NCBI GenBank assembly: GCA_022843525.1
Contig: JALHNR010000008.1
Coordinates: 1-32,756, forward strand
Direction: 5' to 3'
DNA length: 32,756 bases
DNA from: Methylocystis sp.
GTDB taxonomy: Bacteria > Pseudomonadota > Alphaproteobacteria > Rhizobiales > Beijerinckiaceae
Shown here: positions 16,889 through 32,756 of the stretch, in pieces
Position numbering within the stretch: position 1 is the stretch's first letter
Layout: each line of letters starts with the position of its first letter
Notes under the pieces: generated by a model
The model's database searches: none
What the model was told of the DNA's origin: nothing
The model's input: only the letters and a program-made list of their open reading frames with translations
Translations under genes and position numbers: made by a program

Positions 16889-18049
16889 TTAAGAAGCGCT
16901 GCGGCGTCGTTCAAGAGGCGCCGGCGACGCGGATAACAGCGTCTCCGTCGGCAGCGGATGGCGCTCCGGCGCGCGGAAGGGAGATTCCAGAGCAAGCACG
17001 AGCTTGACCAGATCCGCCTGGCGGGTCGCGCCGGTCTTCTGGAAAATGCTTTTCAGATAACCTTTGACAGTTCCCTCGCTCAGACCAAGCGCGCGCGCGG
17101 TGGCCGGGACGCCGCCCACTTCAGCGATGGCGAGCAGCACCGAACTCTCGCGGGCGGTGAGGCCGAACACGCCCGCGGCGACTGCTCCACCCTCGCTGGA
17201 GTTGAGCGCGAGCCTGCGCAAAAACAGCGCCGACAGTCCCTTGGACAGCGGCAGCACATGCATCACGCAGCAGCGCGACTCTCCCCGCTTCACCATGATC
17301 GCGAAGGCTTCCGCATCGACCCCGCCGATCCGGGCGAGCGCACGTTCCAAAGCCTCCTTCGCGCGCGGATCGCGCAGAGCCAGCGTATCGCCGGAGATCG
17401 CCAGCGCATCGCCTTCGCCAAGCATCTCGTCGGCGCTGCGATTCCGATGGACGATGCGCATCCTGCTGTCGACGACAAGCACAGGCGACGTCAGCTCCTC
17501 GAACAATTCGACGAGAGCCGATGTGTCCGATGCCGGCTTGTGCCGCGCGATGGCCTTGGCGAGATGCGGCAGAAGCGCGTCAAGCCGCGCCTTCGCGTCG
17601 GCGTCGGCGAGACCTGCAGCCTGATCGCGAAAGGCGACGAATAGGCAAACGCCGGTCTCGGACCGGTGAATGACTCCGCCGATCATATCGGCGAGGCCGA
17701 AGGGCGCCATCCAGCGCTGGTAGGCGCCGCTTTGATGAAGCTCGTCCAGGGAGACGAAGTCTTCCGACGAGAACGCCCGACCGACGCCAATCTCGGCTAA
17801 GACTCGCGCCTTGACCGGATCGAGTTTGCGATGATTGCGCAGATATTCGACGATCCAGGCTTTCTCGGCGCGCGTCGAATGCTTGAGCTCCAACAGCGCC
17901 GAACAACGGTCTTCGAACAGCAGCGCTGCAAAGCGCACATTTAGCAAACGCGCGATCTCGTCGAGCGCATGGGGCCAGTGCTGGGCTTCGTCGGCTGCGG
18001 CTTTGATGGCCGCGATGACGCGCGCATCCGCATCGTTCGTCGAGGTCAT
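16889..18049 (-). CDS. LuxR-type helix-turn-helix transcriptional regulator
   Basis: A 386-residue cytoplasmic regulator. The C-terminal LuxR/FixJ-type helix-turn-helix is at about 295-354: FGLTARESSVLLAIAEVGGV, ARALGLSEGTVKGYLKSIFQ, KTGATRQADLVKLVLAL. A central PAS-like segment (LVELFEELTSPVLVVDSRMR to about 270) precedes it, and the N-terminal 180 residues are an unassigned sensory region. It lacks the receiver domain of response regulators and the N-acyl-homoserine-lactone-binding signature. GGGTGAAGA precedes the ATG. It is divergent from the copper receptor cluster across about 170-270 bases, so regulation of that cluster or of itself is possible but only positional. The ligand is unknown. 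Confidence 0.88.
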   Translation of the reverse strand: MTSTNDADARVIAAIKAAADEAQHWPHALDEIARLLNVRFAALLFEDRCSALLELKHSTRAEKAWIVEYLRNHRKLDPVKARVLAEIGVGRAFSSEDFVSLDELHQSGAYQRWMAPFGLADMIGGVIHRSETGVCLFVAFRDQAAGLADADAKARLDALLPHLAKAIARHKPASDTSALVELFEELTSPVLVVDSRMRIVHRNRSADEMLGEGDALAISGDTLALRDPRAKEALERALARIGGVDAEAFAIMVKRGESRCCVMHVLPLSKGLSALFLRRLALNSSEGGAVAAGVFGLTARESSVLLAIAEVGGVPATARALGLSEGTVKGYLKSIFQKTGATRQADLVKLVLALESPFRAPERHPLPTETLLSASPAPLERRRSAS

Positions 18050-18198: not shown

Positions 18199-18214
18199 GT
18201 TGCGCAACTGCAAC
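18199..18214. promoter_or_regulatory. GTTGC/GCAAC operator-like repeat upstream of the copper cluster
   Basis: The sequence GTTGCGCAAC is a perfect 10-base palindrome (18199-18208), followed one base later by a further GCAAC (18210-18214). Overlapping inverted and direct TGCAA-type half-sites resemble binding sites of Fur/Mur-type metal regulators in alphaproteobacteria. The position between the LuxR gene and the first gene of the receptor cluster suits an operator. The protein that binds is not identifiable from sequence. Confidence 0.4.
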
Positions 18215-18317
18215 AATGACAAGAATTTACGTGAATGCCGAGCGTCACCCTCCCGATCGGGGGGAAACGGAAGAAAACGTAGCGGCTAAGTTACACGAAA
18301 TGAATCGGCGTAGCGGC

Positions 18318-18710
18318 ATGTCACCTCCGGCTTCAACGAAGACAGCAAAGACGAACGCAAGGCGGAAAGACCTGCGCGCCTTTCTTGCTGCGACGATTTT
18401 CGTCGTTTCGGCGTTGTTGCAGGCGACGATCGCGCCGCAGGCGGCCCTGTCGGCGACGCAAGAGTTCTGCGTCACGAGTCACGCCGCTGCGGACGAGACC
18501 GCGCCGAGCGGCGCGCCGACGCACGGCTGGCACGCGCACTGCGGCGCCTGCCAGATTGCCGCGGCGCCGATCCTTTCCGAAAAGCCGCCGATCGCGCGGC
18601 TCGAACAGCCGCCAATCCCGCTTGTCTATTTCGACTCATGGCCTTTCGAACCGCGAGAGCGACGCCGGCCCGGCGAAATGCGCTCGCGCGCGCCTCCCAC
18701 GCTCTCCTGA
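18318..18710 (+). CDS. Small His/Cys-containing membrane-anchored protein (DUF2946-like)
   Basis: About 130 residues from the ATG at 18318; in-frame ATGs at 18300 and 18216 are alternatives and none has a clear ribosome binding site. After a basic start, FLAATIFVVSALLQATIAPQ is a signal anchor or signal peptide. The exported part holds FCVTSHAA and the cluster HGWHAHCGACQ, three His and two Cys within 11 residues, a likely metal-binding site. Short proteins with a His/Cys cluster, often named DUF2946, are frequently found next to TonB-dependent copper receptors, as here (60 bases upstream of one). The copper-handling role is inferred from that context and the ligands. The family assignment is tentative. 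Confidence 0.68.
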   Translation: MSPPASTKTAKTNARRKDLRAFLAATIFVVSALLQATIAPQAALSATQEFCVTSHAAADETAPSGAPTHGWHAHCGACQIAAAPILSEKPPIARLEQPPIPLVYFDSWPFEPRERRRPGEMRSRAPPTLS

Positions 18711-18770
18711 CGAAACAAAACACGCACCGTTTCAACCGCCGTTCGCCGGCGGATCAGGAGAACTCATCCA

Positions 18771-21197
18771 ATGTACCGTCCCGCCCTACTGCGCAGCGCA
18801 AGCGCTTGCGCGTTGATCCTGGCCTCGCTTGCGACCGCCAAGGCCCAAGTCTCTCTTCCGCAGATCGTCGTCGGCGCCGCGCAGGGGACGCCAACCACGC
18901 CGCCGGTGGATAAGGCCAACGAGACCGTCGTCACGCAAAGAGAAATCGTGGAGGAAAAACCTCCCGAAACGGATACGGCGAAGCTTCTCGAGCATCAGCC
19001 GGGCGTGAGCGTTCAGACAGGGGGCGGCGTTTCCGGGCTCCCGGCGATCCGCGGTCTCGCCGACGATCGCCTGAAGATTGTCGTCGGCGGCGTGCAGGCC
19101 ACGTCCTCCTGCGCCAATCACATGAATTCGCCGTTGAGCTACACCGATCCGAACACGATCGGCCGCGTTGAAGTCGTCACCGCGGTCTCGTCCGTCAGCA
19201 AAGGCGGCGATTCGATCGGCGGCTCTATTCTGGTCACGCCGAAATCGCCGGTCTTTGCGACGCCTGTGGTCGCGCCGGGGGTTGTCGGCCCGGGCGGCGC
19301 GCCGGTGTCGCCGATCGTCGCCGCAAGTCCCTACCCGCCTGTTCCCTATCTGCCGCTGCCGGTTCCCGGGACGCTGCGATTTGGCCCGAACAATGAAGTG
19401 CTGGCGACGGGAACAGTTTCCGCGTTCTTCCGCGGCAACAACAACGGCGTCGGCGTTTCAGCAAACATCAACATGGCCAACGACCATTGGAGCCTGCTCT
19501 ACAATGGGTCCTGGCAGCGGGCGACGAACTATCACGCCGGCGGCAACGGCGACAAAGTTCTCTCAACGAGCTTCATGTCCGAGAATCACGCCGTCACGCT
19601 CGGCTACCAGAACGAAGGGCATCTGTTCACCTTCCGCGGCGCCTATCAGAACATCCCCTACCAGGGCTTTCCGAACCAACGCATGGATATGACGCGCAAT
19701 CGCTCCTATTCGCTGGACGCTCTCTACAAGGGCGCCTTCGAATGGGGCACGCTGGAGGCGCGCGCCTACTGGCATCAGGTCTTCCACAAGATGGGATTCC
19801 TGGAGGATAGATTCTGGCTCAATCACCCGATGATCGCGCTCGGCCGCGACTTTGGCTATTCGGTAAAAGCGGAAATTCCATACAGCGATCAGGATCTTTT
19901 CCGCATCGGCAATGAGTTCCACGGCTATCGCCTGCAGGACTACTGGCCTTCCGATCCCACCGGTTTCACGCAGGGGTTCGCCACGCCACCCGGCAGTTTG
20001 AGCCGGCCTTTCGCGAATGTGAACATCAACGGCGGCCAGCGCAACCGATTTGGCACCTATGCCGAATGGGAGCGCCGCTGGACGACTCAGTGGTCCAGCC
20101 TGATTGGCGTGCGCAACGACATCGTCTGGATGGACACTGGTCCTGGCCAGAGCTACACGCCCTTTATCTTCCCCAACTCACCCCTGCTCGCGCGCGCGAA
20201 TAATTTGGCGGTCAATATCTTCAACGCGCAAAATCGCGCGCGCATCGACATCAATTTCGACATGACTGCTCTGGCGCGCTATGAGCCGGAACCTGGCAGC
20301 CTTTACGAGTTCGGCTATTCGCGCAAAACGCGCTCGCCCAATCTCTATGAACGCTACACTTGGCCGGTCGCCGGCCCGTTCACGGCGATGTTCAACTGGT
20401 TTGGCGACGGCAATGGGTATACTGGCAACCTCAATCTGAAGCCGGAAGTGGCGCACAACGTCGCATTCACTGGCGCTTGGCGCGACATGTCCGGCGCAAA
20501 CAATTGGGAAGCGCGGATTTCGCCCTTCTATACCTATGTCGAGAATTACATCGACGGCGCGAGAACCGGCGGGACCTTCAATCAGTTTCCAGTGGCGAAT
20601 TCCTACATTTTCCAGATCTTGCAGTTCCGCAATTTCAATGCGGAGCTTTATGGCGTCGACGGCTCGGGCAGAGTGAAGCTGCATGAGTCGCCCGAATACG
20701 GCAGGCTGCAGGCGGTGGGCGTCGTCAGTTTCGTCTATGGACGAAATCTCGATATCGGCAATCCGCAGTATTGTCCGCCTGGCAACGGCTTGTGCTCCGT
20801 CGCGTCGTTCCTGGTCAAAAAGGGCGACGGTTTGTGGAACCTGATGCCGGCCAATGCGCGCATTGCGCTCGAGCACCAGATCGGCGGGTTGAGCATGGCC
20901 GCTGAAACGCAACTCGTCGCGCCTAAGGATCACGTGTCGGCGAACAAGGGAGAGTTCACGACCCCGGCGTATGCGCTGCTCAATCTCCGCGCCGCCTATG
21001 ACTGGAGCAATATGCGCATCGACCTTGGCGTCGACAACGTCACCGATGCGCTCTACTCGCTGCCGCTTGGCGGGTTCGACTTGACGAACTATTCGCGCAA
21101 TGCGTTCCTCTTCGGACGCAATGCGGGTCTTGCGAGCGTGCGCCAGGTCCCCGGAATGGGACGAAACTTCTACGCGGGCCTGACCGTAAGGTTCTGA
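18771..21197 (+). CDS. TonB-dependent copper receptor, OprC/NosA-like
   Basis: An 808-residue outer-membrane receptor. It has a signal peptide (about 1-25), a TonB-box-like LPQIVVG at about 29-35, a plug domain (LLEHQPGVSVQTGGGVSGLP and IRGLADDRLKIVVGGVQ) and a beta-barrel ending in the aromatic strand NFYAGLTVRF with terminal Phe. TSSCANHMNSPLSY holds a CxxxM motif (C114, M118), and WHQVFHKMGFLEDR holds HxM (H339, M341). These match the Cys, Met, His and Met copper ligands described for Pseudomonas OprC, so copper import is the best call. An unusual Pro/Ala/Val-rich insertion (about 159-200) lies at the plug-barrel junction. AGGAG at 18756-18760 precedes the ATG. It is followed by a terminator hairpin. 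Confidence 0.88.
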   Translation: MYRPALLRSASACALILASLATAKAQVSLPQIVVGAAQGTPTTPPVDKANETVVTQREIVEEKPPETDTAKLLEHQPGVSVQTGGGVSGLPAIRGLADDRLKIVVGGVQATSSCANHMNSPLSYTDPNTIGRVEVVTAVSSVSKGGDSIGGSILVTPKSPVFATPVVAPGVVGPGGAPVSPIVAASPYPPVPYLPLPVPGTLRFGPNNEVLATGTVSAFFRGNNNGVGVSANINMANDHWSLLYNGSWQRATNYHAGGNGDKVLSTSFMSENHAVTLGYQNEGHLFTFRGAYQNIPYQGFPNQRMDMTRNRSYSLDALYKGAFEWGTLEARAYWHQVFHKMGFLEDRFWLNHPMIALGRDFGYSVKAEIPYSDQDLFRIGNEFHGYRLQDYWPSDPTGFTQGFATPPGSLSRPFANVNINGGQRNRFGTYAEWERRWTTQWSSLIGVRNDIVWMDTGPGQSYTPFIFPNSPLLARANNLAVNIFNAQNRARIDINFDMTALARYEPEPGSLYEFGYSRKTRSPNLYERYTWPVAGPFTAMFNWFGDGNGYTGNLNLKPEVAHNVAFTGAWRDMSGANNWEARISPFYTYVENYIDGARTGGTFNQFPVANSYIFQILQFRNFNAELYGVDGSGRVKLHESPEYGRLQAVGVVSFVYGRNLDIGNPQYCPPGNGLCSVASFLVKKGDGLWNLMPANARIALEHQIGGLSMAAETQLVAPKDHVSANKGEFTTPAYALLNLRAAYDWSNMRIDLGVDNVTDALYSLPLGGFDLTNYSRNAFLFGRNAGLASVRQVPGMGRNFYAGLTVRF

Positions 21198-21214
21198 CGC
21201 AACATGCTATCTTA

Positions 21215-21243
21215 AAAGGCGGCGCGCCCTTGCGCCGCCTTTC
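21215..21243 (+). terminator. Terminator or attenuator hairpin after the copper receptor
   Basis: AAAGGCGGCGC (21215-21225) pairs perfectly with GCGCCGCCTTT (21232-21242) across a six-base loop. It lies 18 bases past the receptor stop and 13 before the thioredoxin-like start. The trailing T-run is short (TTT then CC), so it may stop only part of the transcripts and set a lower level for the genes behind it. Confidence 0.8.
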
Positions 21244-21255
21244 CTCCGGACGTTT

Positions 21256-21825
21256 ATGATGCGGCGACCTCTCGTTTTGACCCTTTTGCTCTGCGTTGCG
21301 CTTGCCTCGGCGCATGCCGAGATCATCGGCGCCAACGCGCCGCGCGCGGTCACCGAGGACGAGATGAAGGCCTCTCTGGGGGAGGTCGATCTCGTGGGCG
21401 CAAATGGCGCGTCGCTCGATCTGCGCGCGCTGATGGCGAACGGTCGGCCGACGCTTGTCAGCCTTTGGGCATATTGGTGTCCGAATTGTCTCGCCGAAAT
21501 GAAAGGCTTCAAGGCGATCGCCGCCGCCTGCCCGGATCGTTGGAACATCGTCTTCGTCTCGGCGCGCGCAAGCGACTACCCCAAGGATCTGGCGAAGTTC
21601 AAAACCTACGGCCTGCCCTGGAAGATTTTTCGCGTCGGCGATTCTACGAAGACCGATGTCGCAAAAGCAAAGAGCGCGCGGGCCTTCTACGGCGCCACGG
21701 CCGACGGCGGCGTGGTCACCCCGCTGCACTATCTGATCGGCGCTTCCGGACGGGTGGACGCTATCGTCGACGGCAGACTGAACTTCGCCGAACCCCAACG
21801 TCTCGCCGCCTTCTGCGCCGACTGA
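21256..21825 (+). CDS. Exported thioredoxin-like protein (TlpA/ResA-like, CPNC)
   Basis: A 189-residue protein with a signal peptide (MMRRPLVLTLLLCVALASAHA) and a thioredoxin fold of the TlpA/ResA type: GRPTLVSLWAYWCPNCLAEM carries the redox-active C75-P-N-C78, and VVTPLHYLIGASGRVDAIVD has the cis-Pro and central-strand region. Such periplasmic proteins reduce disulfides, for instance in cytochrome or copper-site assembly. It follows the copper receptor by 58 bases with a terminator hairpin between. Maintaining reduced Cys or Met ligands of copper proteins is a reasonable inference. The ribosome binding site is weak, and the second Met (21259) is equally possible as start. Confidence 0.88.
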   Translation: MMRRPLVLTLLLCVALASAHAEIIGANAPRAVTEDEMKASLGEVDLVGANGASLDLRALMANGRPTLVSLWAYWCPNCLAEMKGFKAIAAACPDRWNIVFVSARASDYPKDLAKFKTYGLPWKIFRVGDSTKTDVAKAKSARAFYGATADGGVVTPLHYLIGASGRVDAIVDGRLNFAEPQRLAAFCAD

Positions 21826-21903
21826 AACGGCGCCGTTCGGCCTTGTCGCCAAAATGCATTATCTTGGCGCGAAGATTCGGCTCTGAAGCGCCGAGGAGAG
21901 CCC

Positions 21904-22851
21904 ATGCGAGAACTTGTCGCGTCGCCCGGCAACCCAATCCCCGAGGGCGCCGCAGTTTACATCCTGAAGACACGGGATGGCCGGCGTTTGCGCGCAGCCG
22001 CATTTCCTTGCAGCGGGAGTGCGCGCGGCACGGTGGCGCTGTTTCAGGGCCACAACGAATTCATCGAAAAATATTTCGAGACAATCGAGGAGTTGCGCAG
22101 CCGCCGCCTCGACGTGGTCGCGCTCGATTGGCGTGGCCAGGCCGGCTCGGAGCGCGAACTCGCCGACCCGCGCAAGGGCCATATCGACGACTTCTCGCAG
22201 TATCAACGCGATCTGGAGGTTTTCATCTCCCAGGTGTTGAGCCAGCGGCCGCAGCCTTGGTTCGCCCTCGCACATTCGATGGGCGCGGCCATCCTGCTGG
22301 ACGCGGCGCATGCAGGAAAAACGCCGTTCCAGCGTTTCGTGCTGACCGCCCCGATGATTGATCTCGCCAATCTGCGCTTTCCGCGCGGGTCGCGCTGGCT
22401 CGCTGACACGCTCGACATGTGCGGACTGGGCGGCAAGTACATCCCGGGCGGAACCGGCGCCTCTTTCATCGAGAAGCCCTTCAAGGGCAATCTCTTGACC
22501 ACTGACCCGGTTCGCTTCGAACGAAACGCGGCGATACTCCGGGTAGCGCCGCAGCTCGCCATCGGCGATCCGACGATCGGCTGGGTCAACGCCGCCTTCC
22601 GTCTCATGAGGGGTTTCGAATCGCCCGACTACGCCCGAAGAATTCGCGCGACAATCCTGATGTTCGGCTGCGGGCGTGAGACGATCGTCTCTAACGCCGC
22701 CATCGAGCGTTTCGCGCAAAATCTCGACAGCGGCGTTCTCGCGATGATCCCCGGCGCCAAGCATGAACTCATGATGGAACGCGACGAGTTTCGCAGTCAG
22801 TTCTGGCGCGGCTTCGACGCTTTCATTCCGGGCGAAGCGCGCGTCTCCTAA
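21904..22851 (+). CDS. Alpha/beta hydrolase, lysophospholipase-like (serine aminopeptidase S33 type)
   Basis: A 315-residue cytoplasmic alpha/beta hydrolase. LFQGHNEFIEKYFETIEELR resembles the oxyanion-loop region of PldB-type lysophospholipases, DWRGQAGSERELADPRKGHI follows strand 4, and LAHSMGAAI carries the nucleophile Ser125. PGAKHELMMERDE supplies the catalytic His near the C-terminus. The acid region reads FGCGRETIVSN, with Glu after Arg where PldB-like enzymes usually show Asp, so the acid may be Glu or displaced. GAGGAGA precedes the ATG. It is 78 bases after the thioredoxin-like gene and its stop overlaps the convergent hisN stop by four bases. The substrate is probably a monoacyl lipid, inferred from family only. 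Confidence 0.87.
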   Translation: MRELVASPGNPIPEGAAVYILKTRDGRRLRAAAFPCSGSARGTVALFQGHNEFIEKYFETIEELRSRRLDVVALDWRGQAGSERELADPRKGHIDDFSQYQRDLEVFISQVLSQRPQPWFALAHSMGAAILLDAAHAGKTPFQRFVLTAPMIDLANLRFPRGSRWLADTLDMCGLGGKYIPGGTGASFIEKPFKGNLLTTDPVRFERNAAILRVAPQLAIGDPTIGWVNAAFRLMRGFESPDYARRIRATILMFGCGRETIVSNAAIERFAQNLDSGVLAMIPGAKHELMMERDEFRSQFWRGFDAFIPGEARVS

Positions 22852-27300: not shown

Positions 27301-27405
27301 CAAAAAGAGAGCCGCAACGGCGGCTCTCAAGGCTTCTTGACAGGGAGGCATCAAGGACGAGTGGAGAAGAAGCCACTCGGAGGTCCCACCTAGGGACACA
27401 TTCAG
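27301..27405 (-). ncRNA. Candidate sRNA of suhB/alpha-r8 (MmgR) type
   Basis: The minus strand shows three hairpins in order: GTCCC-(5)-GGGAC (27383-27397), CGAGTGG-(8)-CCACTCG with loop CUUCUUCU (27358-27379), and a terminator, GAGAGCCGC-(4)-GCGGCTCTC (27307-27328) followed by five T (27302-27306). No gene on that strand needs this terminator: the nearest minus-strand gene upstream starts past 30 kb, so a short independent RNA of about 100 nt is likely. It is divergent from suhB, as expected for the suhB motif described in alphaproteobacteria, whose members bear pyrimidine-rich loops. A GATTAT hexamer at 27412-27417 may be its -10 box. Structure and direction are visible; the family name is recalled. 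Confidence 0.62.
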
Positions 27406-27420
27406 GCTGCATGATAATCG

Positions 27421-27436
27421 TTAATTTAAAGTTAAC
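27421..27436 (+). promoter_or_regulatory. Perfect CtrA-box match between sRNA candidate and suhB
   Basis: TTAATTTAAAGTTAAC is TTAA-N7-TTAAC, an exact match to the CtrA half-site pair. It ends three bases before the possible -10 of the minus-strand sRNA and lies about 190 bases before the suhB start. The AT-rich palindromic makeup (GTTAA on both strands) means another regulator or a plain promoter AT-element is possible. The rest of the region to 27624 shows no gene or structure that I can support. Confidence 0.5.

Positions 27437-31848: not shown

Positions 31849-32756
<908 letters not shown>

Follow-up and report, generated by a model that had tools for sequence, protein, structure and literature searches.

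A probable copper-acquisition operon in a Methylocystis-type methanotroph, headed by a candidate copper-sensing arrest peptide

The contig JALHNR010000008.1 of the Methylocystis sp. assembly GCA_022843525.1 was analysed from position 1 to position 32,756 of the forward strand (32,756 nucleotides (nt), called the window in the following). It contains four consecutive open reading frames (ORFs) on the plus strand, and the subject of this text is the TonB-dependent receptor encoded by the second of them together with the short cruR-like gene in front of it. The cruR-like upstream ORF, which belongs to the DUF2946 family, spans 18216..18710 and encodes 164 amino acids as called; its true start may lie downstream of 18216, as several orthologues have shorter frames. 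It is followed by the receptor (18771..21197, 808 amino acids), which resembles OprC, by a thioredoxin-fold protein with a CPNC motif (21256..21825, 189 amino acids), and by an alpha/beta hydrolase (21904..22851, 315 amino acids, Hydrolase_4, lysophospholipase-like) that is conserved in the cluster. All four ORFs lie where an initial annotation, made from the nucleotide sequence, had placed them.

Relatives of the receptor in named genomes were collected by a search of genome contigs, and the best 80 of at least 548 confirmed encoding stretches were kept. The nearest named receptors among these 80 belong to Methylocystis sp. L43 (99%) and M. rosea SV97 (98%). Two matches to PF02461 (the AMO/PmoA family) are present in the host genome, one of them truncated by a contig end, and a search of the assembly for a 16S gene gave nothing. 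The genome is that of a Methylocystis-type methanotroph, and the methanotroph host that the initial annotation had entertained is borne out by the PF02461 matches and the nearest receptors.

The receptor has a single CxxxM motif (C114-M118) and two HxM motifs (H339-M341 and H352-M354). Across 20 aligned family members there is no change at C114, N116, H117, M118, H339 or M341, and H352 varies. An alignment of 76 sequences including the window receptor shows the same six residues as invariant, together with M305 and M354. OprC of Pseudomonas aeruginosa is matched by the 20-member family profile with E 2e-24 and by the 76-member profile with E 2e-43 over OprC residues 43-723. The latter alignment places C114/M118 on C143/M147 of the OprC plug and H339/M341 on H323/M325 of the barrel. 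The initial annotation had pointed to these two motifs as the copper ligands of OprC and had proposed an alignment with that protein; the motifs are in place and the four ligands occupy homologous positions. In addition, M305 aligns with M286 and M354 with M343, two of the silver-binding track methionines of OprC (PMC8610252), and both are invariant in the window family. Two other positions of the methionine track, M341 and M339 of OprC, are replaced by H352 and L350 as counted in the profile alignment, and loop 460-492 of the window receptor has no methionine.

The relatives were fetched with the seeds [SA][AST]CANHMN and NQRMDM[TI], and the ORF was chosen by the pattern CxNxM; the plug motif is therefore partly selected for, while HxM is not. 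CxNHM with HxM 183-225 residues further on is found in all 79 intact receptor ORFs, the 80th relative (L063) being broken. The host genome has 18 loci with a TonB-plug match, at several of which a neighbouring ORF may have been read instead, and CxxxM occurs in one of them, that of the window.

Structural comparisons point in the same direction. A phmmer search of solved structures gives OprC as the top match (E 1e-13; next non-OprC match 6e-4). The AlphaFold2 model built from 76 sequences has a mean pLDDT (predicted local distance difference test) of 83.7 and superseded a first model from 20 sequences (pLDDT 66.1, with residues 114-119 below 50). Its nearest fold is OprC (VIA Z 37.4, 2.1 Å over 598 residues), followed by ZnuD (34.0) and ChuA (32.5), and Foldseek likewise ranks OprC first. 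It had been considered initially that the nearest homologues might turn out to be siderophore or B12 receptors, which did not occur since the closest solved homologue is OprC. The receptor shares with OprC and NosA the fold, the positions of the plug CxxxM and the barrel HxM, and two track methionines. It differs from OprC in its low identity (16-20% in structure alignments), in scoring below the family cut-off, in the form CxNHM with an invariant extra histidine, in the histidine at the position of track M341 and in the lack of methionine in loop 460-492. Homology and the modelled fold make it likely that the receptor is a divergent OprC-type copper importer, for which binding and import of ionic copper are predicted.

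The upstream ORF matches DUF2946 (PF11162) with 27.7 bits, above the cut-off of 23.7, and is by gene order the first gene before the receptor. It contains the presumed copper-sensing motif CxxC (CGAC, residues 109-112, codons at 18540..18551), then 45 residues, the arrest motif RAPP (residues 158-161, codons at 18687..18698), three residues and the stop codon. This is exactly the layout of Bp2923/CruR of Bordetella pertussis, where CxxC is required for copper control and RAPP is essential, and where the output is Rho-dependent termination (PMC9426467). The same source describes the Bordetella protein as an arrest peptide that is presumably short-lived and had escaped earlier proteomics. Arrest of CruR has been reproduced in vitro and mapped by toeprinting, with the P and A sites occupied by the two proline codons; RGPP, too, is prone to arrest (PMC12992588). 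An RGPP variant is found in the CruR-like ORF of a Methylosinus locus (L081).

The layout is kept within the genus. In 27 Methylocystis rows directly before a receptor, the spacing between CxxC and RAPP is 45-47 residues, the tail is exactly three residues and the gap to the receptor gene is 57-85 nt, and the pattern used for selection was looser (spacing 40-52 residues, tail 0-12). A wider CruR pattern, applied to loci up to L081, added L077 and L081. No CruR motif was found within 700 nt upstream of 58 of the 79 receptors, including those titled beta- and gammaproteobacteria and Chlorobiaceae, and the switch therefore does not extend to the receptor family as a whole.

It is very likely, judged from these motifs and their spacing, that the upstream ORF encodes a regulator of the CruR type that would act as a sensor in cis, and not a hand-off protein. 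The initial annotation had described the product as a His/Cys-rich anchored protein taking part in copper capture and hand-off. The description is fair, but the role does not agree with a DUF2946/CruR-type ORF, and the supposed hand-off partner is most likely a cis-acting sensor because it shares layout and spacing with the arrest peptide. A general caution follows for annotation: a DUF2946 gene taken to encode a metal-binding protein can in fact be a regulator.

The predicted fold of the junction between the two genes joins the end of cruR to the translation signal of the receptor. The sequence TCTCCTGA (18703..18710), which consists of the final cruR codons and the stop codon, pairs with TCAGGAGA (18754..18761), the receptor Shine-Dalgarno sequence, around an inner hairpin (CCGCCG/CGGCGG, 18736..18752) between the two arms. 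A stem-loop over the next Shine-Dalgarno sequence, as in CutF, is predicted here and conserved. Junctions with a gap above 120 nt (L075, L078, L080 and the second L074 row) were dropped before folding, L054 is outside the junction list because its DUF2946 ORF is not adjacent to the receptor, and L076 was left out of the swap and rank tests because of its short leader. Among 24 aligned junctions 91.3% of the cells are paired, compared with 35-55% after sliding by 1-3 columns, and by itself the RNAalifold consensus recovers six of the eight pairs of the arm. When arms were swapped between eight lineage representatives, 164 of 40320 permutations did as well as the native pairing. The arms of two Rhodoblastus groups reach -12.4 and -16.0 kcal/mol on their own leaders, whereas foreign arms give only -3.3 to -8.6 there.

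The arm was also ranked against the other same-frame segments of cruR for pairing with a 20-base leader target. At 29 of 34 junctions it is among the top 5%, the exceptions being L069 and L071 (Rhodoblastus), L074, L077 and L045. The 20-base target was picked after a run with 32 bases, in order to isolate the Shine-Dalgarno sequence, and other junctions of the same operons serve as its control. In that comparison the top 5% is reached at 11 of 11 cruR-receptor junctions, 2 of 18 receptor-thioredoxin junctions and none of 17 thioredoxin-hydrolase junctions; several of the 11 syntenic loci are near-identical and not independent. Seven of the 18 loci (L044, L049, L050, L052, L067, L068 and L168) are without a CruR match by BLAST and were not counted, and the junctions of these seven genomes are each in the top 5% in the 34-junction test. 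On balance, masking of the Shine-Dalgarno sequence is the probable output.

Taken together, the locus probably serves copper acquisition in a methanotroph of the Methylocystis type, as an operon under the control of an arrest peptide that senses copper. When copper is scarce, a ribosome translating cruR would stall on RAPP and cover the last cruR codons and the stop codon, which would otherwise pair with the receptor Shine-Dalgarno sequence. Considering the size of a ribosome footprint, stalling on the proline codons at 18693-18698 would bring the edge of the ribosome to about 18708, and the stalled ribosome would therefore cover most of the arm. The freed Shine-Dalgarno sequence would allow translation of the receptor, which might then import ionic copper through a plug-and-barrel site of C, M, H and M like that of OprC. 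With ample copper the nascent CruR would bind copper at CxxC, the stall would be relieved and the ribosome would leave, after which the mRNA would close over the Shine-Dalgarno sequence and import would stop.

The more detailed proposal is that the final codons and stop of a copper-sensing arrest peptide form the anti-Shine-Dalgarno sequence of an importer, that the arrest site, the three-residue tail and the RNA pairing are one fitted device with CruR sensing, a SecM-like output and a copper sign opposite to that of CutF, and that this device is repeated before several receptor genes, three of them in the host, as a copper regulon. The chances of this whole proposal appear only slightly better than even. 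The use of the stop region of the upstream ORF itself as the anti-Shine-Dalgarno sequence of a copper importer, which the pairing suggests, is its boldest and newest part. If true, it would show how a nascent copper-sensing peptide can control a gene 60 nt downstream, and it would explain why RAPP lies exactly three residues from the end. This regulatory side is judged weightier than the finding of the receptor.

Several observations weigh against masking by the stop region. The 24-sequence alignment contains no two-sided change in any pair of the arm helix. The signal in the swap test is one-sided and comes chiefly from the two Rhodoblastus groups, and Rhodoblastus arms on Methylocystis leaders reach -9.7 to -12.8, about the same as the -12.4 of group 1 on its own leader. 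With 32 bases the target takes in the GC-rich hairpin, and the arm then ranks first at only 3 of 34 junctions. In L069 and L071 most of the pairing falls 5' of the 20-base Shine-Dalgarno region, and 25 and 40 of 121 cruR segments are equal or better there. A literature search, which had supplements and most subscription journals outside its reach, found no copper measurement or experiment on the locus; nor did it find a prior description. A Rho-type output is also conceivable. In the classical CruR system copper relieves the stall and Rho terminates transcription before the receptor, as demonstrated for the B. pertussis homologue, in which case the complementarity of arm and Shine-Dalgarno sequence would be incidental. 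A C>G bubble does cover the end of cruR and the gap (18670-18747, peak 21.8 against a window mean of 0.9 and a standard deviation of 7.8), but 4.4% of the window stretches exceed 15 and the bubble is thus not exceptional. The gap is 60 nt here, within the 57-85 nt of the 27 Methylocystis rows, and not 162 nt as in B. pertussis, and the complementarity is specific to the cruR-receptor junction; Rho termination alone therefore seems a possible but doubtful account. The opposite sign of control, in which copper prolongs the stall, opens the Shine-Dalgarno sequence and induces the operon, is the logic of CutF, whose output is a stem-loop shielding the Shine-Dalgarno sequence (PMC9973294), and the short gap agrees with it. 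It is nevertheless improbable, as the motifs are CxxC and RAPP as in CruR, whose RAPP arrests in vitro, and not the CxxxC of CutF, and as a copper-induced importer makes little sense. The His/Cys content and hydrophobic N terminus could also be those of a functional copper chaperone or capture protein in the periplasm that hands copper to the receptor or acts after it. This role was rejected for the DUF2946 protein on account of the CruR layout and the presumably short-lived homologue, and its probability is very small, since much of the sequence outside the motifs drifts while the motif spacing is kept.

The cargo of the receptor must be weighed separately. All NCBIfam scores are below cut-off, and TIGR01778 (OprC/NosA, TonB-copper) gives 69.7 bits against 472.45, so that the receptor falls outside this equivalog. 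It scores higher with haem-receptor models (TIGR01785/01786), namely 102.2 of 323.75 for haem/transferrin and 89.6 of 316.85 for haem, which again counts against the preferred interpretation. ZnuD and ChuA follow OprC in fold, and the window clade lacks methionine in loop 460-492, which would speak for haem, zinc or a copper chelate as the cargo. However, the four OprC ligands are invariant. Haem receptors have a histidine between the FRAP and NPNL boxes, and none of 20 members has a histidine between the corresponding FRAP- and NPNL-like boxes; membership among the haem receptors was rejected for this reason and because of the scores below cut-off. CrtA, an importer of copper chelate, has no conserved cysteine or methionine and a His-based site according to PMC12914433. 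Membership in CrtA was rejected since C114, M118 and M341 are invariant in the window family, and MbnT membership was rejected since an MbnB-family match is absent from the window contig (C8). A cargo other than ionic copper is accordingly regarded as unlikely. For the preferred reading, that of an importer of ionic copper, it is of interest that a large family related to OprC, spread over many Gram-negative bacteria, keeps the four copper ligands though its member in the window falls below the standard cut-off.

The arrangement might not be confined to this receptor. A covariance model was built from the junction and contains both the helix and the RAPP codons, which makes its recurrence partly circular. 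In the window the model has one strong match (111.7 bits; next 14.8), and matches were found in 30 of 39 genomes of the genus. The top 29 rows are the junctions of the receptor family itself, and 38 further rows are listed below them. Fifteen of these lower rows, hand-chosen and outside the training set, were read, and all 15 have RAPP or QAPP, three residues ending in serine, and a stop. Six to eight of eight bases are complementary to a downstream segment in these 15 rows, the partner being the best of many positions. The next gene has a receptor-like start, judged by eye, in 11 of them and a plug match after L202; it was left unread for L209, L210 and L214. Host contigs C115 and C31 account for two of the 15 rows, in both cases directly before a receptor plug. 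In a set that is independent of the model, 19 CruR rows collected largely by protein family, about seven have pairing between the stop region and the Shine-Dalgarno sequence by eye and the rest do not. These rows suggest that a CruR-type device recurs before other receptors in the genus, with three cases in the host genome. A PF11162 scan of the host genome undercounts such genes, as it lists only contigs C317 and C279 and misses the cruR of the window.

A variant was noted in L202, L209, L210 and L214, where the CruR-like ORF ends in QAPP instead of RAPP and the three-residue tail and the complementarity to the Shine-Dalgarno sequence are kept.

Similar systems have been described in other genera. 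The CruR-CrtA operon of B. pertussis has the same DUF2946 upstream ORF in front of a receptor gene, with CxxC and RAPP 45 residues apart and three residues after RAPP. It differs in the receptor family, in the length of the gap (162 instead of 60 nt), in having PepSY_TM where the window has a thioredoxin-like protein, and in that the window has complementarity to the Shine-Dalgarno sequence in place of or besides Rho termination. The CutF-CutO system of Rhodobacter capsulatus likewise has a DUF2946-like nascent sensor, a short gap and a stem-loop on the next Shine-Dalgarno sequence. In that system copper strengthens the stall and an oxidase is induced, whereas the logic here would be repression of an importer, and in the window the anti-Shine-Dalgarno sequence lies within the stop region of the upstream ORF. 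A copper-starvation operon in Bradyrhizobium, presumably the one named pcuABCDE (a search by name gave no paper), is a further parallel. It begins with a cruR homologue and is switched on when cells are starved of copper, and oprC itself is also preceded by a cruR homologue (PMC9426467). In SecM-secA the stalling of a ribosome unmasks the start signal of the following gene (see also PMC9973294), although secretion and not copper is sensed. The window would then join a CruR-type sensor to an output of the SecM/CutF type. The authors of the CutF work asked whether other CutF-like genes, many with a short gap and many before TonB-type genes, use unfolding of a stem-loop (PMC9973294). Stem-loop unfolding as an option for DUF2946-like genes with a short gap has hence already been raised.

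The CPNC protein downstream has a thioredoxin fold of the TlpA/DsbE kind, with weak profile matches that are all below cut-off, and its N terminus is signal-peptide-like as judged by eye. The exported thioredoxin-like protein of the initial annotation is thus real. An ORF with WCPNC lies 3' of the receptor in 18 of 24 loci headed by CruR, and AhpC_TSA and thioredoxin genes have been reported behind CruR or RAPP upstream ORFs (PMC9426467, PMC12992588). In the periplasm the protein may serve to reduce copper or the thiol groups on copper chaperones. The initial idea of a cluster for copper capture, hand-off and redox chemistry holds as far as the link to copper is concerned; the upstream hand-off gives way to the CruR layout, and the redox role is putative.

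The gene order is conserved in many Methylocystis loci: Hsp20-like, LuxR, cruR, receptor, thioredoxin and hydrolase genes, then inositol-phosphatase-like, N-formylglutamate-hydrolase-like and response-regulator genes, the outer ones being named by eye without a family search. The slot of the receptor varies, since the flanks of L048 and L066 are about as close to those of the window as the flanks of L038 and L064, yet the receptor is 53% identical. The receptor tree separates a Met-poor clade of nine, including the window, from a Met-rich clade of five, both with support of 100/100. Loop 460-492 has 7-12 methionines in the Met-rich clade versus none in the window clade, and 5-12 in L022, L023, L024, L026, L027, L028 and L045. 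Genome G001, a fragmented assembly, has both receptor types in tandem, each with its own cruR, and the second receptor is in pieces. The choice of a Met-poor or a Met-rich receptor between conserved flanks (L042:6901-11911, L048 and L066), together with the tandem in one genome, looks as if differential loss had followed a duplication.

The receptor belongs to a wide OprC-related family. Among the best 80 of at least 548 stretches it occurs in Methylocystis, Rhodoblastus, Azospirillum, Methylosinus, Methylobacter, Methylomonas and Methylophaga, and further in Accumulibacter, Gallionella, Chlorobiaceae, Magnetococcales and others. Azospirillum, Rhodoblastus, Accumulibacter and Chlorobiaceae are not known to be methanotrophs. 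The family spans many groups, and supply of methane monooxygenase therefore cannot be the general role of the receptor. Methanotrophs do have a high copper demand on account of their particulate methane monooxygenase, and work on how they take copper up has usually dealt with methanobactin; an ionic-copper receptor in Methylocystis would, if true, stand beside it. In 37 genomes of the genus, 26 have both receptor and PmoA, two the receptor only, three PmoA only and six neither (Fisher p 0.0008), and among the 31 that are at least 89% complete the numbers are 24, two, two and three (p 0.02), all counts being hand-read cells confounded by kinship and genome incompleteness.

MbnB is above cut-off in 21 of 39 genomes of the genus and not in that of the host. 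The host contig C317 (5288 bases) has a flank resembling the mbn-type locus of L165, and for this reason absence of methanobactin in the host is not claimed. At L165:2428-7830 a divergent DUF2946 ORF is followed by MbnP, a di-haem peroxidase (MbnH-like) and a receptor, beside methanobactin-type genes; the receptor of this locus was not flagged with CANHM.

Other loci combine a receptor of the family with different neighbours. In L054, L055, L170 and L088 of the Methylocystis group, a CANHM receptor with an N-terminal STN domain lies behind genes for FecR and an extracytoplasmic function (ECF) sigma factor. A DUF2946-like ORF fronts such STN-type loci (in L170 it scores 22.3, just below the cut-off of 23.7), as if an OprC-like receptor were wired to surface signalling. 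The Pfam search covered the L054 receptor and four L170 genes, and of this arrangement L169 showed FecR and the receptor only. Three Chlorobiaceae loci (L116:371-754, L118:5303-5686 and L121:5479-5862) have a Cys-rich ORF of 128 amino acids with CCGHC and without RAPP before the receptor.

Beside the cluster in the window, and also in closer relatives, lies a divergent LuxR-type regulator (16889..18049, minus strand), with GerE above and PAS below cut-off. A search of the window for transfer RNA genes found none, and the alphaproteobacterial small RNA family BjrC1505 has a match at 27302-27430 on the minus strand (52.1 bits, gathering score 50). In a Gallionella metagenome-assembled genome (MAG), a small exported-looking His-/Cys-rich protein without Pfam match is encoded directly before a CANHM receptor (L129:5401-5841); we take it to resemble copper storage proteins. 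A Sideroxydans MAG has a gene for a PCuAC copper chaperone 3' of the receptor (L113:8355-8858).

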